From Burkholderia cepacia (GTDB lineage Bacteria > Pseudomonadota > Gammaproteobacteria > Burkholderiales > Burkholderiaceae): DNA of 64,000 nt. Location of the stretch: the NCBI RefSeq assembly GCF_001039005.1, contig NZ_LDWR01000005.1, positions 1-64,000 of the forward strand, in the 5' to 3' direction. Below, one piece after another: positions 5,961 through 20,125 of this stretch; within the stretch, counting starts at the first letter, position 1, and each line of letters starts with the position of its first letter. Under the pieces are notes generated by a model that saw nothing but the letters and a program-made list of their open reading frames with translations, made no database searches and was not told the origin of the DNA. A program made the translations under genes and the position numbers.

Positions 5961-6380
5961 CAACATCGCTGCCCTGGACACCGCCGCCCCAAAAACGGGT
6001 TCAACGAGCGATGCGCCCCCCACCGGAAGGCGTCATATCGGCAACATGACCGGTTCGAAGTTGCATGAGTCACGACAGCGACAACGGTAAAAACGCGCGA
6101 AAACAACAAACGCCCCCTTTCAAAGCAAAACTGTGAAGCTCGCTACCCGGCCGGACCGGCCGCCCAACGGCACCCCATCAAAGAACCCGCGCCGGCGTCG
6201 ATCCGACGCGCGGCAACACCGTCTTCGCGCTTGTCGGGCGCCCCCTTGCGCCCTTTCTCTCGTATCCATCGATTCACACCACACCATTCAATTTCATTAC
6301 GACGATATTTACGTTTTACATACGTATTAAACGATGCCCGCACACCCCCGTAAGCCATCGGATTACATTCAGTAATTTAG

Positions 6381-6399
6381 ATGCGAATCATTCTCGTTT
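6381..6399. promoter_or_regulatory. Fur-box-like site upstream of the iron operon
   Basis: ATGCGAATCATTCTC at 6381-6395 matches 12 of 15 positions of the 3' part of the 19-bp Fur consensus; a further CATTCTCATT half-site follows at 6407-6416. It lies about 135 bases before the porin start, and the downstream genes include a complete ferric-iron ABC transporter. Confidence 0.55.
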
Positions 6400-6533
6400 A
6401 CATTGACATTCTCATTCGACACTCCTACGATGCGCCGCGTTGCGTTCATCTTTGTGCCCTGGCCAATCGGCGCCGAGCGTTCGGATAGCGCCTTAAAAGC
6501 AGGACTCCAGACTAAGAAAACCAGGGGTTTGAT

Positions 6534-8000
6534 ATGAAGTTTGTGTCGTTCCACGGAGACCGCATCCGCGTCCGGATGCGCCCCGCCGCCTGTGCGGCCG
6601 TCCTCGCTTGCGCGTCGTTCGCGAGCGGCGCCGCGTTCGCCGACACGCCGGTCGACGCGCAACCCGAAGCGCCCGAAGCCGACCTCGCGATCCAGGCAAA
6701 GCCGACCAACATGTGGACCGGCATCTGGAGCCGCCAGAGCCTGCTCGGCGACATGGGCGGCATCCGCCCGTGGCTCGGCAGGTACGGCGCGACGCTGCAG
6801 ATCACCGAAACCAGCGAATATCTCGCGAACCTGCGCGGCGGCCTGAATCGCGGCGGCGCGTACGACGGGCTGACGACGGCGACTTTGACGGTCGATACGC
6901 AGAAGGCGATCGGCCTGCCCGGCGGCACGTTCAACGTCAGCGCGCTGCAGATCCACGGCACCAACCTGAGCGCGCGGAATCTCGGCACGCTCAACACCGC
7001 GAGCGGCATCGAGGCGCAGGGCACGACGCGCCTGTGGGAGCTGTGGTACCAGCAGTCGTTCCTCGACAAGCGCGTCGACGTGAAGATCGGCCAGCAGAGC
7101 CTGGACCAGGAATTCATGGTCAGCACGTATGCGAACACGTTCGTCAACACGATGTTCGGCTGGCCCGCGCTGCCGTCGTACGACCTGCCCAATGGCGGCC
7201 CCGCCTATCCGCTCGCCGGCCTCGGCGTGCGTGTGCGCGCGCAGATCACGCCGAAGCTCACCGCGCTCGCGGGCGTATTCGACGGCGATCCGCTCGGCAA
7301 CAACCCGAACAACCTGAGCGGCACGAACTTCAACCTGCACAACGGCGCGCTCTACATCGGCGAGTTGCAGTACGCGCTGAACCAGCCGTCCGACGGCGAA
7401 ATGGATACCGGCCGCTCGAACGGGCTGCCGGGCACCTACAAGGTCGGCGTCTGGTATCACAACGGCCGCTTCGCTGACCAGAACGTCGGTACCGACGGAC
7501 TATCGCTCTCGGATCCCGCGTCGAACGGCAGCGCGCAGCAGCACCACGGCGACTACAGCTTCTACGCAGTGGCCGACCAGATGATCTGGCGCCCGGACCC
7601 GACCGGCCCGCGCAGCCTCGGCGTGTTCGCACGCGTGATGGGCGCACCGGGCGACCGCAACCTGGTGAGCTTCTCGGCCAATGCGGGCGTCGTGCTGAAG
7701 GCCCCGTTCGAAGGCCGTGACAACGACAGCGTCGGCCTCGGCGTCACGTACATCCAGGTCGGCAACCACGTGACCGACCTCGACCAGACCGCGCGGACGT
7801 TCGCGACGGGCCCGTACGGCGTGCGCACCCGCGAGACGACCGTCGAGGCGACCTACCAGTACCAGGTCAACCCGTGGTGGGTGATCCAGGCCGACGCGCA
7901 GTACACGTTCAATGCCGGTGCCGGCCAGAACCCGAGCGACGCGACCCAGCCGCTGCGCGGCACGTTCGTGCTCGGCGCGCGCACGACCATCACGTTCTGA
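6534..8000 (+). CDS. OprB-family carbohydrate-selective-type porin
   Basis: 488 residues. A signal peptide ends at about residue 36 (SGAAFA before DTPVD). The motif WTGIWSRQSLLGDMGGIRPW after it and the long beta-strand-rich remainder ending in a terminal Phe (ARTTITF) are typical of OprB porins of the outer membrane. Start is the ATG at 6534; residue 15 is another Met but would leave an unusually short lead. It is the first gene of a six-gene operon (67 bases to the next gene) behind a Fur-box-like site. Family members pass sugars, but in this setting it may admit a ferric chelate; that is inference. Confidence 0.88.
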   Translation: MKFVSFHGDRIRVRMRPAACAAVLACASFASGAAFADTPVDAQPEAPEADLAIQAKPTNMWTGIWSRQSLLGDMGGIRPWLGRYGATLQITETSEYLANLRGGLNRGGAYDGLTTATLTVDTQKAIGLPGGTFNVSALQIHGTNLSARNLGTLNTASGIEAQGTTRLWELWYQQSFLDKRVDVKIGQQSLDQEFMVSTYANTFVNTMFGWPALPSYDLPNGGPAYPLAGLGVRVRAQITPKLTALAGVFDGDPLGNNPNNLSGTNFNLHNGALYIGELQYALNQPSDGEMDTGRSNGLPGTYKVGVWYHNGRFADQNVGTDGLSLSDPASNGSAQQHHGDYSFYAVADQMIWRPDPTGPRSLGVFARVMGAPGDRNLVSFSANAGVVLKAPFEGRDNDSVGLGVTYIQVGNHVTDLDQTARTFATGPYGVRTRETTVEATYQYQVNPWWVIQADAQYTFNAGAGQNPSDATQPLRGTFVLGARTTITF

Positions 8001-8067
8001 GCACCTTGCCCACGCTACCCGTTTTTCGCGCGCCGCCACGGCGGCGCGTCCCCCAGGAGAGACCCAG

Positions 8068-9201
8068 ATGAATCAATCCGCCCCGCTTCGCCGCCTCGCG
8101 ACGGGCGCACTGGCCGCCGTCGCGCTGACGGCCGCCGCCGGCGCGTTCGCCGAGCCGCAAGGCTTCCTCGAGACACTCCATCGCCACTCGCTGCTCGTCA
8201 ACACGGTGCCCGACAACGGCGATCAGAACCCGTACGCGATCGCGGTCGCGCCGGTGTCGGCCGGCACGATCCAGGAAGGCGACGTCCTCGTCGACAACTT
8301 CAACAACGCGGCGAACCTGCAAGGCACCGGCAGCACGATCGTCAACTACCGCCCGTCGACCAAGCAGATGAGCCTGTTCGCGACGATTCCGCGCGACCTG
8401 AAGGCATGCCCGGGCGGCGTCGGCCTGTCGACCGCGATGACGATGCTGAAGTCGGGCTGGGTGATCGTCGGCAGCACGCCGAGCAACGACGGCACGACGT
8501 CGACGAAGGGCGCCGGCTGCCTGATCGTGCTCGATCCGCAAGGCAAGGTCGCCTCGACGTGGTCGAGCCCGAACATCAACGACCCGTGGGGCAACATGGC
8601 CGTGGTCGACCGCGGCGACAGCGCGACGCTGTTCGTCAGCATGGCCGGCTTCGGCGTCGGCGGCGCGGACGGCAACCCGCCCGTCTACAAGCAGGCAACC
8701 GTGCTGCGCCTCGACCTCGACGTGCCGGCCGGCAAGCCCCCCGCGATCAAGCAGGAAACGGTCGTCGCGAGCGGCCTCGGCGCGCAGGCCGACAAGGGCG
8801 TGTTCCTGGTCGGCCCGACGGGCCTCGCGCTGTCGGGCGACCAGAAGAAGCTGTATGTGTCGGACGCGATCGGCAACCGGATCGTCGAGATCGACGATCC
8901 GCTCACGCGCGACACGAGCGCGGGCGTCGGCCGCCAGGTCACGGCCGACGGCTTCCTGCGCCGCCCGCTCGCGCTCGCGACCGCGCCGAACGGCCATCTG
9001 CTCGCGACCAACGCGCTGAACGGCCAGGTCGTCGAGATCGACCCGGTCGCCGGCAAGCAGCTCTATGCACGCTGGATCGACACCGACAAGGCGCAATCGC
9101 CGCCCGGCAACGGCGACCTGTTCGGGATCGCGATGACGCCGGCCGGCGACGGTTTCTATTACGTCCAGGACGACGTCAACACGCTGATGCTCGCGAAGTA
9201 A
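8068..9201 (+). CDS. Secreted NHL-repeat/beta-propeller protein
   Basis: 377 residues from the ATG at 8068, with CAGGAGA upstream. A signal peptide ends at about residue 27 (GAFA before EPQG). The mature part has repeated segments of the NHL/six-bladed propeller type, such as GPTGLALSGDQKKLYVSDAI followed by GNRIVEID, and LATAPNGHLLATNALNGQVV. No catalytic residues are obvious. It sits between the porin and the DyP peroxidase (11 bases to the latter), so it is probably a periplasmic partner of the iron system. Its substrate is unknown. Confidence 0.75.
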   Translation: MNQSAPLRRLATGALAAVALTAAAGAFAEPQGFLETLHRHSLLVNTVPDNGDQNPYAIAVAPVSAGTIQEGDVLVDNFNNAANLQGTGSTIVNYRPSTKQMSLFATIPRDLKACPGGVGLSTAMTMLKSGWVIVGSTPSNDGTTSTKGAGCLIVLDPQGKVASTWSSPNINDPWGNMAVVDRGDSATLFVSMAGFGVGGADGNPPVYKQATVLRLDLDVPAGKPPAIKQETVVASGLGAQADKGVFLVGPTGLALSGDQKKLYVSDAIGNRIVEIDDPLTRDTSAGVGRQVTADGFLRRPLALATAPNGHLLATNALNGQVVEIDPVAGKQLYARWIDTDKAQSPPGNGDLFGIAMTPAGDGFYYVQDDVNTLMLAK

Positions 9202-9212
9202 CGGAGCCGACC

Positions 9213-10520
9213 ATGGCAGACGATCTGAACCCGCCGTCGCGCCCCGCGCGCCGCGGCTTCCTGAAGGCCGGCGGCGCGGCGGTGGCCGCGGGCCTCGCAG
9301 CGGGTGCGATGCCGGTCGCGCAAGCAGCCGATGCAGCCAGCCCGGCCGCGCCGGATGCGCACGCGCACGACAACGACCTCGAGCCGTTCTTCGGCAAGCA
9401 CCAGAGCGGCATCACGACGCCGCAGCAGCGCAACGCGTATTTCGCGGCGCTCGACCTCGCAACCGACAAGCGTGCGGACGTGATCGCACTGCTGAAGACG
9501 TGGACCGACGCAGCCGCGCGCCTGACGCGCGGCGACACCGCACAGCCGCTGCCGGCGACCGGCGGCGACGACGTCGCACCGGCCGACTCGGGCGACGCGC
9601 TCGGCATCGGCCCGTCGCGGCTGACGATCACGTTCGGCTTCGGGCCCGGCCTGTTCGCCGTTGCGGGCAAGGACCGCTACGGCCTCGCGAAGCAGCGCCC
9701 GGCCGCGCTCGTCGACCTGCCGCGCTTCAATGGCGACCAGCTGATTCCGGAGAAGACCGGCGGCGACCTGTTCATCCAGGCGTGCGCGAACGACGCGCAG
9801 GTCGCGTTCCACGCGGTGCGCCAGCTCGTGCGCCTCGGCGGCAAGGCCGTGCAGATGCGCTGGGGCCAGGCCGGCTTCACGTCCGGCAAGCCGGGCGAGA
9901 CGCCGCGCAACCTGATGGGTTTCAAGGACGGCACGATGAACCCGTCGCGCGACGACCCGGCCGCGATGAACGAGTTCGTGTGGGCCGGCAGCGAAGGCCC
10001 GGCGTGGATGAACGGCGGCACCTACACGGTCGTGCGCCGCATCCGCATCACGCTCGAACACTGGGACAACACCGAGCTCGGTTTCCAGGAGCAGGTGTTC
10101 GGCCGCAAGAAGTACAGCGGCGCGCCGCTCGGCGGCAAGCAGGAATTCGAAGCGCTCGACCTCGACGCGGTCGACAAGGACGGCAATTCGGTGATCCCCG
10201 ACAACGCGCACGCGCGTCTCGCATCGCCGCAACTGAACAACGGCGCGCAGATCCTGCGTCGCGCGTATTCGTACAACGACAGCGCGAACTTCTACATCGA
10301 GCGCTGGCCGCCGTGGCGCCAGCAGACCGAGTACGACGCGGGGCTGATGTTCGTCGCGCACCAGCGCGACCCGCGCAAGGGCTTCATTCCGATCAACGAG
10401 AAGCTCGCGAAGCTGGACATCATGAACCAGTTCACGACGCACGTCGGCAGCGCGATCTTCGCGTGTCCGCCGGGCGCGCAACCCGGTTCGTATATCGGCG
10501 CCGCACTGTTCGAAGCGTAA
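9213..10520 (+). CDS. Dyp-type heme peroxidase, Tat-exported (EfeB-like)
   Basis: 435 residues from the ATG at 9213. The N-terminus carries a twin-arginine signal (ARRGFLKAGGAAVAAGLAAG), so the folded heme protein goes to the periplasm. The opening FFGKHQSGITTPQQ and the distal heme motif GFKDG with D239 identify the DyP/EfeB family; a conserved His-containing segment VAFHAVRQLVR precedes it. EfeB proteins oxidise ferrous iron or act on heme-type substrates in iron uptake systems. Here it lies directly upstream of a ferric-iron ABC transporter, suggesting that it produces ferric iron for FbpA-type capture. Confidence 0.9.
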   Translation: MADDLNPPSRPARRGFLKAGGAAVAAGLAAGAMPVAQAADAASPAAPDAHAHDNDLEPFFGKHQSGITTPQQRNAYFAALDLATDKRADVIALLKTWTDAAARLTRGDTAQPLPATGGDDVAPADSGDALGIGPSRLTITFGFGPGLFAVAGKDRYGLAKQRPAALVDLPRFNGDQLIPEKTGGDLFIQACANDAQVAFHAVRQLVRLGGKAVQMRWGQAGFTSGKPGETPRNLMGFKDGTMNPSRDDPAAMNEFVWAGSEGPAWMNGGTYTVVRRIRITLEHWDNTELGFQEQVFGRKKYSGAPLGGKQEFEALDLDAVDKDGNSVIPDNAHARLASPQLNNGAQILRRAYSYNDSANFYIERWPPWRQQTEYDAGLMFVAHQRDPRKGFIPINEKLAKLDIMNQFTTHVGSAIFACPPGAQPGSYIGAALFEA

Positions 10521-10592
10521 CGACACGACGACGCAACGACACGCAACGCACTCATTTTTCCGGGCCGCCCGGATGCAACTCACGACGACGAC

Positions 10593-11627
10593 ATGAACAC
10601 TTCACCCGTTAGCCGCCCGCTGCGGCACCTGATCTCCGCGGCCGCCGCCGCGCTCATGCTGACCGGCGCGCTGCACGTCTCGCACGCGCATGCCGCGACG
10701 CTCACGCTGTACAACGCGCAGCACGAGCAAGTCGTCAACCAGCTCGTCAAGGACTTCGAAGCGCAGAGCGGCATCACCGTGAAGGTGCGCTCGGGCGAAG
10801 GCCCGGCGCTCGCCGCGCAGATCGTCGCGGAAGGCGATCGCACGCCGGCCGACGTGTACTTCACCGAGAATTCGCCCGAGCTCGTGCTGCTCGACCGCAA
10901 GGGCCTGCTCGGGAAGACCGACGGCGCCGCGCTGCAAGCGGTGCCCGCGCGCTTCAACCCGGCCGACGGCAACTGGGTCGGCGTGCTCGCGCGCGAGAAC
11001 GTGCTCGTCTACAACACCGCGAAACTCCAGCCGCAGCAACTGCCCGCGTCGCTGCTCGATCTCGCGAAGCCGGAATGGAAAGGCAAGGTCGGCGTCGCGC
11101 CGAGCGATGCGGACTTCCTGCCGCTCGTGAGCGCGGTGCTCGCGCTGCACGGCGAAGCCGCGACGCTGCAATGGCTGAAGGGCCTGAAGACCAACGCGCA
11201 GATCTTCGACGACGACGAAGGCGTGACGGCGGCCGTGAACCGCGGCGGCGTGCTGACCGGCATCATCAACAACTACTACTGGGACCGCCTGCACGCCGAA
11301 CTCGGCGACAAGTCGACGAAGAGCGCGATCCACCACTTCGGCAATCACGACGTCGGCGCGGCCGTAAACGTGTCGGGTGCCGCGGTGCTGAAGGCGTCGA
11401 AGCACCAGGCCGACGCGCAGAAGTTCGTCGAGTATCTCGTCAGCGAGCGCGCGCAGAAACTGATGGCGGGCGGTCACATCAGCTTCGAGTATCCGCTGCA
11501 CCCGGGCGTCGCGCCCGACCCGATCCTGAAGCCGTTCAACGAACTGAGCCCGCCGGCGCTGACGTTCGAACAGCTCGGCGACGATAGCCAGGCCGGCAAG
11601 CTGCTGCGCCAGGCCGGCCTGCTCTGA
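10593..11627 (+). CDS. Ferric-iron ABC transporter, periplasmic binding protein (FbpA-like)
   Basis: 344 residues; signal peptide ends at about residue 34 (HAHA before ATLTLYNAQH). The mature start TLYNAQHEQVVNQLVKDFE and the adjacent tyrosines Y228/Y229 in INNYYWDRL, the iron ligands of the FbpA/FutA group, support ferric-iron binding. It begins 72 bases after the DyP gene and ends two bases before the permease GTG start, so it is cotranscribed. Capture of ferric iron in the periplasm and delivery to the permease is the expected role. Confidence 0.9.
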   Translation: MNTSPVSRPLRHLISAAAAALMLTGALHVSHAHAATLTLYNAQHEQVVNQLVKDFEAQSGITVKVRSGEGPALAAQIVAEGDRTPADVYFTENSPELVLLDRKGLLGKTDGAALQAVPARFNPADGNWVGVLARENVLVYNTAKLQPQQLPASLLDLAKPEWKGKVGVAPSDADFLPLVSAVLALHGEAATLQWLKGLKTNAQIFDDDEGVTAAVNRGGVLTGIINNYYWDRLHAELGDKSTKSAIHHFGNHDVGAAVNVSGAAVLKASKHQADAQKFVEYLVSERAQKLMAGGHISFEYPLHPGVAPDPILKPFNELSPPALTFEQLGDDSQAGKLLRQAGLL

Positions 11628-11629
11628 CC

Positions 11630-13228
11630 GTGAGCGACGCCGTGTCCCGCACGGCGCGCGCCGTGCACGACGGCGAACGCACCGCGACGCGGCGGCGCCC
11701 GTCGCGCGCGCTCGTCGCCGCGGCCGCGTGCGGGCCGCTGTTGATCCTGCTGCCGCTCGGCTTCACGCTGTACCGCGCGGCAACCTTCGGCCTCGACGAT
11801 GCGATCGAGCTGCTGTGGCGGCCGCTCGTCGGCGAACTGCTCGTCAACACGCTGTCGATCACGCTCGCCGCGACCCTCGCGTGCACGCTGCTCGGCACCG
11901 CGGTCGCGTGGTTCATCGAGCGCACGGACCTGCCGGCCCGGCCGCTGTGGACTGCCCTCGCTGCCGCGCCGCTCGCGGTGCCGCCGTTCATCACGAGCTA
12001 TGCGTGGGTGTCGCTGAGCCTCGACCTGCAGGATTTCCTCGGCGCGCTGATCGTGCTGACGTCCGCGTACTTCCCGCTCGTCTATCTGCCGGTCGCCGCC
12101 GCGCTGCGCGAGCTCGATCCCGCGCTGGAAGAAAGCGCGCGCACGCTCGGCTGCTCGCCGTGGCATACCTTCTTTCGCGTCGTGCTGCCGCAGTTGCGCC
12201 CCGCGCTGTGCGGCGGGATGCTGCTCGTCGCGCTCGGCGTGCTGTCCGAATTCGGCGCGTTCCAGCTGCTGCGCTTTCGTACCTTCACCACCGAGATCTA
12301 CGCGGAATACCGCACCGCATTCGACGGCGGCGGCGCCTCGTTGCTCGGCTGCGTGCTGATCGCGCTGTGCCTGCTGTGCCTCGCGATCGAGGCGCGTGCG
12401 CGCGGCCATGCGCGCTATGGCCATACGCACCGCGCCGCACGCCGCGTCGCGATGCGTTATTCGCTCGGATCGCTTCGCGGCCCGGTCGCCGTCGCGTTCG
12501 CCGCGCTCGCGGCCGCGACGCTCGGCGTGCCGCTCGCGATGATCGGCTACTGGCTCACGCAACAGGGCGCGGCCGCCGTCACGCCGGCCGACGTGTCGCC
12601 CGAACTGCTGTGGCAGACCACGCTCGCGTCGAGCGGCTACGGCCTCGCGGCGGCAGCCGTCACGACGCTGCTCGCGCTGCCGCTCGCGTTCCTGCTGGTC
12701 CGTTATCCGGGCCGCGTCGCAACGCTCCTCGAACGCACGGCGATGACCGTGCAGGGCGTGCCGGGCATCGTCGTCGCGCTCGCGATCGTGTCGATCACGG
12801 TGCGGCTGCTGCAGCCGCTCTACCAGAGCGCGCCGGCGCTCGTCGGCGCGTACGCGATCCTGTTCCTGCCGCTCGCGGTCGTCAGCGTGCGCGCGGCGCT
12901 GTCGCACGTGCAGGTCCGGCTCGAGGAAACCGCACGCTCGCTCGGCCTCGGCTGGCGCGCGACGCTCACGCGCGTGGTGCTGCCGCTCGCGGCGCCCGGC
13001 CTCGGCGCGGCCGCGACGATGGTGTTCATTTCGGTCGTGACGGAACTCAATGCGACGCTGCTGCTGTCGCCGATCGGCACCCGCACGCTCGCGACGCAGG
13101 TGTGGAGCGATACGGCGACGCTCGCGTTCGCGGCCGCGGCGCCTTATGCGGCGCTGCTTGTCGCGCTGTCGCTGGGCGCTTCGGGACTGCTGTTCCTGCT
13201 GCTCGGCCGCGCGTCGGTGCGCGACTGA
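11630..13228 (+). CDS. Ferric-iron ABC transporter, fused two-domain permease (FbpB-like)
   Basis: 532 residues from a GTG at 11630. Two BPD-transport permease domains are present in tandem, each with the EAA-type loop: ELDPALEESARTLGCSPWHT in the first half and VQVRLEETARSLGLGWRATL in the second. About 12 membrane helices. This two-in-one layout is normal for FbpB/SfuB iron permeases. It follows the binding protein gene with a two-base gap and precedes the ATPase gene by 28 bases. Confidence 0.92.
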   Translation: MSDAVSRTARAVHDGERTATRRRPSRALVAAAACGPLLILLPLGFTLYRAATFGLDDAIELLWRPLVGELLVNTLSITLAATLACTLLGTAVAWFIERTDLPARPLWTALAAAPLAVPPFITSYAWVSLSLDLQDFLGALIVLTSAYFPLVYLPVAAALRELDPALEESARTLGCSPWHTFFRVVLPQLRPALCGGMLLVALGVLSEFGAFQLLRFRTFTTEIYAEYRTAFDGGGASLLGCVLIALCLLCLAIEARARGHARYGHTHRAARRVAMRYSLGSLRGPVAVAFAALAAATLGVPLAMIGYWLTQQGAAAVTPADVSPELLWQTTLASSGYGLAAAAVTTLLALPLAFLLVRYPGRVATLLERTAMTVQGVPGIVVALAIVSITVRLLQPLYQSAPALVGAYAILFLPLAVVSVRAALSHVQVRLEETARSLGLGWRATLTRVVLPLAAPGLGAAATMVFISVVTELNATLLLSPIGTRTLATQVWSDTATLAFAAAAPYAALLVALSLGASGLLFLLLGRASVRD

Positions 13229-13256
13229 ACGCCGCCCTTTTTCTCCGGAACCGCTC

Positions 13257-14306
13257 ATGAGCGAATTACGCATTCACGGCCTGTCCAAATCGTTCGGATC
13301 GCATACCGTCCTGCACGACATCGATCTCACGGTGCGGCGCGGCTCGCGGCTCGCGCTGCTCGGCCCGTCCGGCAGCGGCAAGACGACGCTGCTGCGCGTG
13401 CTGTGCGGCTTCGAGCGCGCCGAGCGCGGCACCGTCGAGATCGACGGGCGTCGTGTGGCCGCGCCCGACGTGCACCTGCCGCCTGAACAACGTCGGATCG
13501 GTTACGTGCCGCAGGAAGGCGCGCTGTTTCCGCATCTGTCGGTGGCCGACAACATCGCGTTCGGGCTGCCGCGCGCGGCGCGGCGGCGCCATCATCGCGT
13601 CGACGAACTGCTCGAGATGGTCGGCCTGCCCGCGTCGTATGCGGGCCGTGCGCCGCAGCAACTGTCCGGCGGGCAGCAGCAGCGCGTTGCACTCGCGCGC
13701 GCGCTGGCGCCCGAGCCGTCGCTCGTGATCCTCGACGAACCGTTTTCCGCGCTCGATACGTCGCTGCGCCACGAAACGCGCAGCGCGGTCGCGGACGCGC
13801 TCGCCGCGGCGGGCGCGACGTCGGTGCTCGTCACGCACGACCAGCCCGAGGCAATGACGCTCGGCGACGAAGTGGCAGTGATGTGGCAAGGCAGGCTCGT
13901 GCAGACGGCCGCGCCCCAGATGCTGTACCGGCAGCCGGTGACGCGCGACGTCGCGTCGTTCGTCGGCCAGGCCGTGCTGCTCGCGGGCCGAGTGCATAAC
14001 GCGCGCATCGCATGCGCGCTCGGCGAGTTGCCGCTCGTCGCGCCGCTACCCGACGGGCCGGCCGACGCGATGCTGCGCCCGGAGCAGATCGGCATCGTGC
14101 CGGTCGCGCAGGTCGACGCGGCGTGCGGCCATACGGCGCGCGTCGAAGCCGCGCAGTTCGCAGGCCAGGACGCGGACGTGCTCGCGCGCCTCGATGCCGA
14201 TAGCGACGTGCTCGTGCGGGTACGCGTGCCGGGACACCGGTGTCCGGCCGTCGGCGAACGCGTCGCACTGGTGGTGGACGGCGCGGTGATGGCGTACGCG
14301 CGCTGA
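13257..14306 (+). CDS. Ferric-iron ABC transporter, ATP-binding protein (FbpC-like)
   Basis: 349 residues from the ATG at 13257. Walker A GPSGSGKTT (residues 36-44), Q-loop in IGYVPQEG, signature LSGGQQQR (136-143), Walker B VILDEP (157-162) and the switch His in VTHDQ are all intact. A C-terminal regulatory TOBE-like domain of about 120 residues follows (MLRPEQIGIVP), as in Fbp/Pot ATPases. Energises uptake through the permease encoded upstream. Last gene of the iron operon. Confidence 0.92.
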   Translation: MSELRIHGLSKSFGSHTVLHDIDLTVRRGSRLALLGPSGSGKTTLLRVLCGFERAERGTVEIDGRRVAAPDVHLPPEQRRIGYVPQEGALFPHLSVADNIAFGLPRAARRRHHRVDELLEMVGLPASYAGRAPQQLSGGQQQRVALARALAPEPSLVILDEPFSALDTSLRHETRSAVADALAAAGATSVLVTHDQPEAMTLGDEVAVMWQGRLVQTAAPQMLYRQPVTRDVASFVGQAVLLAGRVHNARIACALGELPLVAPLPDGPADAMLRPEQIGIVPVAQVDAACGHTARVEAAQFAGQDADVLARLDADSDVLVRVRVPGHRCPAVGERVALVVDGAVMAYAR

Positions 14307-14342
14307 GCGGCGCGGATCGTCGTCACACGCGGTCACGCGTCA

Positions 14343-14858
14343 TCACGCATCGGCGCAGCCCGCGCCCGACAGCGGCCGGAACGTCCGGCCCTCCGTCTCG
14401 ACCGCCGCGCCCAGCAGCCGCGCGAGACCCTTCGCGCCTTCGCGCATCACGACATCGTGATTCCATCGGAACAGCGGTCGCGCGAGCGGCTCCAGCCAGT
14501 TCATCCAGCGCACGTGCGTGCGGATGTGCCAGTCGTAGCGCACAACGGTGCACACGCCGTCGCCGGCAAACGACCAGCATCCGTCGCCTTCGATCGCGCC
14601 GCTCGCGCGGCCTTCGAGCGCATGCGGCGGCTCGACGCGCCGCACGCGCATGTCGAAGGTCAGCCGGTACGGCAGCGCGCCCTTCCACGTATATCGGTGC
14701 AATGCGCCGACGCCGCGCGCGTCGCCCTCCTCGATCTCGACGGTGCGCACGGCGCCCTTCCACCAGTCGGGCCAGCGGTCGACCTGGTAGATCGCGTCCC
14801 AGACCGCCGCGAGCGGCGCGTCCACGCGCCAGGTCGTCGAGAACCGGTATTCCGCCAT
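14343..14858 (-). CDS. SRPBCC-family (START-like) protein
   Basis: 171 residues. The opening TWRVDAPLAAVWDAIYQVDR followed by WPDWWKG is the classical polyketide cyclase/SRPBCC start (a beta strand, then the W-x-W loop), and the rest fits one helix-grip domain. These proteins bind hydrophobic ligands in a deep cavity. There is no signal peptide, so it is cytoplasmic. It lies 44 bases downstream of the ECF operon on the same strand and might be its last member. Ligand unknown. Confidence 0.8.
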   Translation of the reverse strand: MAEYRFSTTWRVDAPLAAVWDAIYQVDRWPDWWKGAVRTVEIEEGDARGVGALHRYTWKGALPYRLTFDMRVRRVEPPHALEGRASGAIEGDGCWSFAGDGVCTVVRYDWHIRTHVRWMNWLEPLARPLFRWNHDVVMREGAKGLARLLGAAVETEGRTFRPLSGAGCADA

Positions 14859-17959: not shown

Positions 17960-20125
17960 TTACTTCGGCAATGCGCCCGTCAGCGACTGAAGCAGCGACG
18001 TCACCGGTGCGAGCGGGTTGCTCGGCGAGCTGCTGCCCGAATGCGGCGTGACCGACAGGCCCGGCGCGGAGCCGAGCGCCGTGCCCACCGTCGTGCCGAC
18101 CGCGTTGACGACCGTCGCCGTCGCGTTCGCGCCCGTCGTCAGCAGCGAGCCGACCGCGCCCGCCGTACCGCCGGCCGCGTTCGCGCCCGAACCGAGCAGG
18201 CTGCCGCCGGCCGCCGCCGTCGAACCGGCCGCGCCCGTCAACGCGCCGGCCGCCTGCCCGAGGGCCGCCGGACCGTTCGCGAGTGCGCCCGTCACCGAAC
18301 CGAGCGCGCCGGTCAGCGCACCGGCCGGATTGCCGCCGCCCGTCAGGCCGTTCACGAGGTTCGTGATCGGTGCGATCGGGTTGTTGCCCGCCGCGCCCGA
18401 CAGCGTACCGACGACCTGGTTCACGACACCTTGTACCGGCGCCAGCGGGTTCGACCCGCCGAGGTTGCCGAGCGCGCCCGTCACCGAGTTCAGCGCGCCC
18501 GTCAGTGCACCGGCCGGATTGCCGCTGCCGAGCGTGCCCACGACCTGGTTCACGACGCCTTGCACCGGTGCCAGCGGGTTCGTGCCGCCCAGGCCGCCGA
18601 GCGCGCCCACCACGGAACCGACCGCGTTGCCCAGTGCGTTCGTGGCCGTGCCGACCGCATTGCTGCTGCCGAGCGTGCCGACGATCTGGTTCACGACGCC
18701 CTGCACCGGCGCCAGCGGATTCGACCCGCCGAGGTTGCCGAGTGCGCCTGTCGGCAGCGCGTTCTGCAGGCCGTTGACGAGGTTCGTGATCGGCGTGATC
18801 GGGCTGCCGCCGCCGGCGCCGGACAGCGTGCCGACGACCTGGTTCACGACGCCTTGCACCGGCGCCAGCGGGTTCGCGCCGCTGAGCGCGCCCGTCACCG
18901 AGTTCAGCGCGTTCGTCAGCGCACCGGCCGGATTGCCGTCGCCGAGCGTGCCCGCGAGCTGCGTGACGACGCCTTGCACCGGCGCGAGCGGGCTTCCTGC
19001 GCCGCCGACGTTGCCGAGCGTGCCCGTGATCGTGTTGACCGCGCTGCTCAGCGCGCCGGCCGGGTTGCCACTGCCGAGCGTGCCCGTGACCTGGTCGACG
19101 ACGCTCTGGATCGGCGCGATCGGGTTCGAGCCGCCGCCGATACCGCCCAGTGCGCCCGTTACCGTGCCGAGTGCGCCGGTCAGCGCGCCGGCGGGGTTGC
19201 CGCTGCCGAGGGCGCCCGTGACTTGATTCACCACGCCTTGAACCGGCGCCAGCGGGTTCGAACCGCCACCGATACCGCCCAGTGCGCCCGTTACCGTGCC
19301 CAGTGCGCCGGTCAGTGCGCCTGCGGGGTTGCCGCTGCCGAGGGCGCCCGTGACCTGATTCACCACACCTTGCACCGGCGCGAGCGGGTTCGAGCCGCCG
19401 CCGATACCGCCCAGTGCGCCCGTTACCGTGCCGAGTGCGCCGGTCAGCGCGCCTGCGGGGTTGCCGCTGCCGAGGGCGCCCGTCACCTGATTCACCACAC
19501 CTTGAACCGGCGCCAGCGGGTTCGAACCGCCACCGATACCGCCCAGCGCGCCAGTCACCGTGCCGAGTGCGCCAGTCAACGCACCGGCCGGGTTGCCGCC
19601 ACCGAGCGCGCCCGTCACCTGATTCACCACACCTTGAACCGGCGCCAGCGGGTTCGCGCCGCCACCGACATTGCCCAGTGCGCCCGTTGCGGTACCGAGT
19701 GCGTTGCTCAGCGCGCCGGTCGCCGTGTTCAATGCACCAGTCAACGCGCCTGCCGGGTTACCGCTACCGAGCGCACCCGTCACCTGGTTCAGCACACCCT
19801 GTACCGGCGCGAGCGGTGTCACCGTGCCGCCGCCACCGCCGAGTGCACCCGTCACCGCCCCCACGGCGCCGGACAGCACCTGGCCGGGATCGCCGAGCGA
19901 CGTCTGGATCGCGCCTGCCCCGCCCGCCGCCACGGTAACCGAGCCCAGCGGCGACGTGCCCGTCGCGACCAGCCCGACCGACACGCTGTTCGTCGGCGAA
20001 TTGACGATCACTTGCGGGATCGGCAGCGAATCGAGGGCCCCCGCCATCGCGGAACCCGAAGCCAGTACCCCGAACACCGTCGCGACCGACAGCGCCACAC
20101 CCGTCAATTTAAGATTTTGTCCCAT
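17960..20125 (-). CDS. Collagen-like/low-complexity repeat protein, exported
   Basis: 721 residues. Signal peptide of about 28 residues (MGQNLKLTGVALSVATVFGV then LASGSAMA). Almost the whole mature protein is built of about 13 copies of a unit starting PLAPVQGVVNQVTGALGSGN and continuing PAGALTGALGTVTGALGGIG; four central copies are 44 residues each and nearly identical. Composition is Gly, Ala, Val, Thr, Asn, with no Cys. Burkholderia proteins of this kind are usually named collagen-like triple helix repeat proteins, although the unit is not a strict Gly-X-Y repeat. Probably a surface or matrix protein. It stands alone with its own strong terminator. No C-terminal anchor visible. Confidence 0.8.
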   Translation of the reverse strand: MGQNLKLTGVALSVATVFGVLASGSAMAGALDSLPIPQVIVNSPTNSVSVGLVATGTSPLGSVTVAAGGAGAIQTSLGDPGQVLSGAVGAVTGALGGGGGTVTPLAPVQGVLNQVTGALGSGNPAGALTGALNTATGALSNALGTATGALGNVGGGANPLAPVQGVVNQVTGALGGGNPAGALTGALGTVTGALGGIGGGSNPLAPVQGVVNQVTGALGSGNPAGALTGALGTVTGALGGIGGGSNPLAPVQGVVNQVTGALGSGNPAGALTGALGTVTGALGGIGGGSNPLAPVQGVVNQVTGALGSGNPAGALTGALGTVTGALGGIGGGSNPIAPIQSVVDQVTGTLGSGNPAGALSSAVNTITGTLGNVGGAGSPLAPVQGVVTQLAGTLGDGNPAGALTNALNSVTGALSGANPLAPVQGVVNQVVGTLSGAGGGSPITPITNLVNGLQNALPTGALGNLGGSNPLAPVQGVVNQIVGTLGSSNAVGTATNALGNAVGSVVGALGGLGGTNPLAPVQGVVNQVVGTLGSGNPAGALTGALNSVTGALGNLGGSNPLAPVQGVVNQVVGTLSGAAGNNPIAPITNLVNGLTGGGNPAGALTGALGSVTGALANGPAALGQAAGALTGAAGSTAAAGGSLLGSGANAAGGTAGAVGSLLTTGANATATVVNAVGTTVGTALGSAPGLSVTPHSGSSSPSNPLAPVTSLLQSLTGALPK
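19124..19651 (-). repeat. Four tandem 132-bp coding repeats
   Basis: Four in-frame units of exactly 132 bases (44 codons), beginning on the minus strand at 19651, 19519, 19387 and 19255. They are nearly identical by eye, differing mostly at silent positions, and lie within a longer array of more diverged copies. Copy number may vary between strains by slippage or recombination. Confidence 0.85.

Follow-up and report, generated by a model that had tools for sequence, protein, structure and literature searches.

The six-gene operon at positions 6534–14306 of the window (the whole 64-kb stretch of DNA analysed) is well supported, as judged from its sequence, as an iron-uptake locus, and it is apparently iron-regulated. 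We lean towards a reading in which it is a Fur-repressed, siderophore-independent system that would acquire iron via the oxidation of Fe(II) by a DyP peroxidase. The operon lies on the + strand of contig C135 of an 8.84-Mb genome, and its genes are separated by intergenic gaps of 67, 11, 72, 2, and 28 bp in gene order (Table 1). The porin, propeller, EfeB-like DyP, and complete ferric ABC transporter named in the original prediction were all found, with the six genes at the positions claimed, and the gene content of the operon also bears out the claim that it contains no TonB receptor. A simple scan of 7900–14500 gave neither a promoter-like site nor a + strand terminator-like site. Elsewhere in the window, the − strand carries a 721-aa frame of degenerate repeats (17960–20125), within which a 132-bp unit is present in about 6 copies at 18915–19719.

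Table 1. Window coordinates of the operon genes and of the elements in the control region.
Feature	Position	Strand	Basis
GTAA (6350–6353 and 6372–6375) and TTAC (6363–6366)	6350–6375	+	Conserved upstream of the Fur box
Fur-type box TGCGAATCATTCTCG	6382–6396		12/14 vs TGAGAATNATTCTCA
Sigma-70-like promoter TTGACA-N17-TACGAT	6403–6431	+	−35 at 6403–6408, −10 at 6426–6431
OprB-type outer-membrane porin, 488 aa	6534–8000	+	PF04966 at 106–488, 331 bits
Secreted beta-propeller-like protein, 377 aa	8068–9201	+	Weak propeller matches; Sec signal by inspection
Tat-exported DyP peroxidase, EfeB class, 435 aa	9213–10520	+	TIGR01412; RR signal in sequence
FbpA/HitA-type Fe(III)-binding protein, 344 aa	10593–11627	+	PDB matches; ligand residues
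FbpB-type two-lobed ABC permease, 532 aa	11630–13228	+	PF00528, 2 stretches; conserved position
FbpC-type ABC ATPase, 349 aa	13257–14306	+	PF00005 and TOBE_2; conserved position

The porin belongs to the OprB family according to Pfam, which labels the family carbohydrate-selective, and its solved homologue is Porin B (4gey). The DyP passes the EfeB model TIGR01412 with 465 bits against a cut-off of 428, its best PDB scores being with the 'deferrochelatase' group (8pxp and 4grc, 341 bits) versus 225 bits for E. coli YcdB/EfeB (2y4f); Asp239, His333, and Arg349, which we take to be the DyP active-site residues, are kept in 90/90 DyP sequences. The top PDB matches of FbpA are ferric-binding proteins of the HitA type (E 4e-77), and of the residues His44, Glu92, Tyr228, and Tyr229, presumably its iron-ligand set, Glu92 is kept in 81/83 sequences and the other three in 83/83. 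Both the permease and the ATPase of the Fbp transporter are complete by Pfam, and no EfeO/M75 protein was found among the operon proteins in Pfam and NCBIfam scans. The operon was also considered as a phosphonate transporter and rejected as such, since the PhnS2/PhnU2/PhnT2 models matched far under their cut-offs and the best PDB matches of FbpA are ferric.

The second gene product stays below the cut-offs of the propeller families, with 21.1 bits for SGL (cut-off 26.3) and 16.9 bits for NHL (cut-off 20), and searches of solved structures with the single sequence and with a profile gave a few weak propeller matches (among them SOQ1, NHLRC2, a surface-layer protein, and a glutamine cyclotransferase). 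The earlier description as an NHL propeller thus stands as to a secreted, propeller-like protein, with the assignment to NHL itself being approximate. Its sequence is strongly constrained, with 151 positions conserved at 97% or more across 92 copies of the porin–propeller–DyP triad. Outside Burkholderia proper (Paraburkholderia, Caballeronia, and Trinickia), the propeller is usually the most conserved of the six proteins (78–85% identity, versus about 56–79% for the other five), and it reaches 98% in the closest named loci among the best 80 of 206 relatives, those of Burkholderia sp. BCC1644 and B. arboris. An orthologue (at least 84%) occurs in 21/37 genomes of the genus and in none of the 24 genomes sampled from other families of the order. 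A propeller paralogue (37–41%) was rejected as a part of the system, because it adjoins a beta-lactamase-family gene on a contig without a DyP or FbpA match; for example, positions 8814–11605 of locus L093 hold a paralogue of 38% identity followed by such a gene. Similar paralogues are present in many Burkholderia, including three genomes (G010, G014, and G034) that have no copy of the operon's propeller.

For the survey of gene order, a search with the propeller that covered one genome per species confirmed 206 relatives, of which the 80 best loci were fetched, all of them from Burkholderiaceae. The search profile (A1) had 41 rows, made up of the window, 37 of the 80 loci, and 3 paralogues, and the genome search scored only a part of the first-pass candidates in each genome. 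Porin and propeller are adjacent in 80/80 of these best-matching loci, and the neighbourhood search called for at the outset found the six-gene order retained in 77, the three others (L017, L019, and L027) running off contig ends. A chance cluster is argued against by this order together with the constant adjacency of propeller and DyP described below. B. cenocepacia, B. multivorans, and B. pseudomallei do not appear in any title among the best 80 of 206 relatives, by which absence from these species is not proven. The operon is present in P. xenovorans LB400 (L036), for which a figure legend names a protein 'EfeN: Deferrochelatase/peroxidase' that is not tied there to the operon locus (PMC10983741). 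A plasmid search returned 7 records, 6 of them bearing no annotation under the match. In Candidatus Burkholderia crenata (L047), the six-gene locus is kept with an internal stop in FbpB, a short porin match, and no Fur box found upstream.

The Fur-type box is the single best match in the 64-kb window to TGAGAATNATTCTCA, which we take to be the Fur-type consensus. In 74/80 loci, the 330 bp ahead of the porin hold a box matching at 12/14 or better, against 0.0006 per kb elsewhere, in support of the proposed Fur-type control site; at the threshold of 11/14 the count is 76/80, and the six loci without a 12/14 box are L019, L026, L047, L052, L078, and L079. The 36-base element originally proposed (6381–6416) holds up in its single Fur-type box, which is followed by the −35 hexamer TTGACA. 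A double Fur box was rejected on the same grounds, as the relatives inspected keep the −35 and show no clear second box. With one mismatch allowed per hexamer, the promoter-like site lies at a constant offset from the box in 75/84 loci with a box of at least 11/14. A pattern related to the Fur box has 27 matches at 23 places in the genome, compared with 1 match for a reversed control. Ten of these 23 places, chosen because an open frame begins soon after them, were examined: five precede TonB-receptor genes, one precedes a gene for a PepSY_TM protein, and the remaining four lie ahead of one LysR gene, one AraC gene, one transglycosylase-like gene, and one unassigned frame. Just before the Fur box, at 6350–6375, most loci keep GTAA repeats set 22 bp apart, together with TTAC in inverted orientation. 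GTAA stands at −10 from the box in 68/83 loci, with 55 occurrences at −32 or −33, and TTAC..GTAA is present in 41/83 loci against 0.46 expected from base shuffling; this element is perhaps the site of a second regulator.

A sample of 200 genomes of the order contained the propeller in 9 genomes, in a total of 10 orthologue copies, and a DyP of TIGR01412 type adjoins it in 10/10, five of these propeller-linked DyPs scoring under the TIGR01412 cut-off. The same sample gave nine DyPs without a propeller, eight of which have an FTR1 gene no more than 1.6 kb away, in agreement with the earlier statement that EfeB is normally found in other surroundings; for the ninth (G204), FTR1 is on another contig. 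In contrast, no FTR1 gene was found within 200 kb of the triad in any of the 10 copies of the order sample, and the two FTR1 genes of the operon's own genome are on contigs C116 and C126 instead of C135. In a midpoint-rooted tree of 35 of 99 DyP sequences, the 26 triad rows and the 9 propeller-less rows form two separate clades with 100/100 support, and identity with the propeller-less DyPs is just 31–36%.

In eleven loci from the genome samples (L124–L132, L142, and L143), porin, propeller, and DyP are together in every case. Fbp follows the triad in four of them (L124, L125, L126, and L143) and is absent beside it in seven, on which ground Fbp was rejected as an obligate part of the unit. 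In the Fbp-less locus L128, bfd-like and ferritin-family genes stand directly upstream of the triad, and in L132 an NRAMP gene stands directly downstream; the other five Fbp-less neighbourhoods contain no recognised iron gene, as far as these were listed. One genome (G114) holds two copies of the triad, L128 and L129, both without Fbp. By gene content, then, the triad is a separable core that Fbp joins in a subset of loci. The predicted pairing of EfeB with FbpABC is a distinct combination, and yet the unit is not simply EfeB plus Fbp, its core being porin–propeller–DyP. The Fur box is weaker in several of these distant loci: among the nine further loci with an upstream region, L124, L130, L132, and L143 reach 12–13/14, L125, L126, and L131 reach 11/14, and L128 and L129 reach 10/14. 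The box of L142 is 11/14, and L127, whose contig ends within the porin, is outside the box counts. In L130 and L132 the box sits at the −10 end of the promoter-like site instead. For the nine propeller-less DyPs, the upstream sequence reaches 8–10 against the Fur consensus.

The FbpA of the operon belongs to a distinct subfamily, whose members are at least 61% identical to the window FbpA, while other matches at E 1e-60 are at most 43% identical. In the phylum sample, this subfamily occurs in 4/4 triad genomes and 0/394 others (Fisher p about 1e-9, ignoring kinship, three of the four positive genomes being of one family), and in the order sample in 4/9 triad genomes and 0/191 others (p about 2e-6, likewise ignoring kinship). 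In a genome of another class (G562), the triad and an fbpABC set of the operon's subfamily are on different contigs; as read from these contigs, the transporter accompanies the triad there even when unlinked. FbpA gave no match at E 1e-20 in five triad genomes, and in two of these five (G114 and G069) FTR1 and FeoB likewise gave none at the limits used, so the way inward does not always run through Fbp. In the operon's genome, FeoB gave no match at E 1e-40. This genome has a second FbpA-like gene (G000:C161:25886-26996), 35% identical, which adjoins another of the Fur-like places.

From the gene identities and order, the box and promoter, the residues of the ligand set and the active site, and the link between the triad and the FbpA subfamily, all seen in the sequences, we built a model that proposes the substrate, the direction of the redox step, the role of the propeller, and the selectivity of the porin. 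At low iron, Fur would come off its box next to the −35 and transcription of the operon would follow, as the positions of site and promoter suggest. The OprB-type porin would admit low-molecular-weight iron to the periplasm, most likely as Fe(II) or weakly chelated iron. The propeller, whose role we infer solely from its strict linkage and conservation, may be a dedicated periplasmic partner of the porin and the peroxidase that holds or presents iron or its ligand. With peroxide, the Tat-exported DyP would oxidise Fe(II) to Fe(III), the reaction reported for EfeB of B. subtilis, and FbpA would then bind Fe(III) through His44/Glu92/Tyr228/Tyr229 and deliver it to FbpBC for ATP-driven import. 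Fbp would serve the core as its inner-membrane partner at the Burkholderiaceae loci and at some of the others.

Iron uptake as the function is argued for by the six-gene order conserved with the Fur box and promoter across genera of Burkholderiaceae, the TonB-receptor genes behind half of the Fur-related places examined, the HitA-like FbpA with its ligands kept, the association of this FbpA with the triad, the constant propeller–DyP adjacency, the iron-type neighbours in L128 and L132, and a genome without an FeoB match. Oxidation of Fe(II) is placed first because B. subtilis EfeB is reported to oxidise Fe(II), the resulting Fe(III) being imported (PMC4481299), and because an OprB-type iron porin is reported from Synechocystis (PMC9705863). 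Counted against this reading are the seven triads without adjacent Fbp, the five triad genomes without an FbpA match, the five Fbp-less neighbourhoods without a recognised iron gene, the weaker Fur box in distant loci, the carbohydrate-selective label of the porin family, and the ferroxidase role being carried over from homologues of another DyP clade. A wider reading, to which we give rather less credence, is that the triad forms a so far undescribed module of the envelope by which periplasmic iron is freed or oxidised without a TonB receptor. The iron would be handed on to interchangeable importers of the inner membrane (in the Burkholderiaceae loci a dedicated FbpABC, elsewhere possibly NRAMP or others), and the propeller would be a new periplasmic carrier of iron or of an iron ligand.

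Among the rival explanations, the one that survives best, though we consider it unlikely, is that the porin admits a ferric chelate (with a plant phenolic, a catecholate, or a sugar acid as the ligand), and that the DyP and a lactonase-like propeller oxidise or open the ligand, leaving Fe(III) to FbpA. DyPs act on phenolics, many of the host species among the 80 loci are presumably soil or plant bacteria, and the OprB-type channel and the weak SMP-30/SGL-like match of the propeller would suit such a scheme; however, the SGL match is under its cut-off, and both the lactonase site and the ligand are hypothetical. It is improbable that the DyP acts as a deferrochelatase on haem with Fbp importing the iron set free: haem is large relative to a sugar-type porin, and a haem receptor is absent from the operon. 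TIGR01412 is named deferrochelatase/peroxidase subunit and EfeB/FepB proteins are reported to extract iron from haem (PMC9174327, PMC4481299), but the activities reported for EfeB-like proteins differ, Listeria FepB being a proposed ferric reductase (PMC4481299). We give just as little weight to a protective role, in which the DyP would remove periplasmic peroxide under iron limitation and Fbp would recover iron, with the porin and the propeller serving another nutrient; that DyP is a peroxidase and that most sampled triads have no adjacent Fbp would fit, but the tight link to one Fbp subfamily, the HitA-type FbpA, and the single control region for six genes do not. Least credible of all is maturation of the propeller by the DyP, which might, for instance, generate an oxidised or metal cofactor in it, much as a Tat-exported DyP of Streptomyces reportedly serves a propeller oxidase; the constant adjacency in the order sample and the best PDB scores of the DyP with the 'deferrochelatase' group are consistent with this, but no match to an oxidase family was found for the propeller among the family models.

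Compared with known systems, the operon shares with FbpABC/HitABC/SfuABC a ligand-bearing FbpA, a two-lobed FbpB, and an FbpC with TOBE, whereas those transporters are not known to have porin, propeller, and DyP partners, their iron arriving through TonB receptors or by other means, and the FbpA here is of a distinct subfamily. EfeUOB/YwbLMN/FepCAB likewise have a Tat-exported DyP peroxidase in an iron operon, but with an FTR1 permease and EfeO, both missing here; the DyP of the present operon is in a separate clade, an ABC transporter is proposed as the importer, and the porin and propeller come in addition. In cyanobacteria, the importer FutABC is Fbp-like, and we know of no DyP–propeller operon alongside Slr1908, the OprB/SLH-type porin of Synechocystis. 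Slr1908 is reported to carry inorganic iron, although Anabaena porins could not be linked to iron in the same paper (PMC9705863); it comes from a different phylum, and its likeness to the porin of the operon is stated at the level of the OprB family. FtrABCD of Bordetella, Brucella, and Burkholderia is likewise siderophore-independent, with periplasmic oxidation of Fe(II) described in Bordetella and Brucella (PMC5681537), but it uses an FTR1 permease and a cupredoxin in place of DyP and Fbp.

A literature search of open-licence papers found no description of the operon or of a second context for EfeB-class peroxidases. Every protein except the propeller falls in a named family, and by the searches made it is the gene combination that is new. 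A review of iron in Burkholderia, in whose main text term counts gave neither 'Fbp' nor 'peroxidase', states that most pathogenic Burkholderia lack Feo and treats the route of ferrous iron uptake in B. cenocepacia as an open question (PMC5681537). The operon offers a testable iron route for the species carrying it. If the proposal is true, proteobacterial iron systems can use a porin as their regulated outer-membrane component, EfeB-class peroxidases would gain a second context without FTR1 and EfeO, and a function would be indicated for a highly conserved, unnamed propeller.
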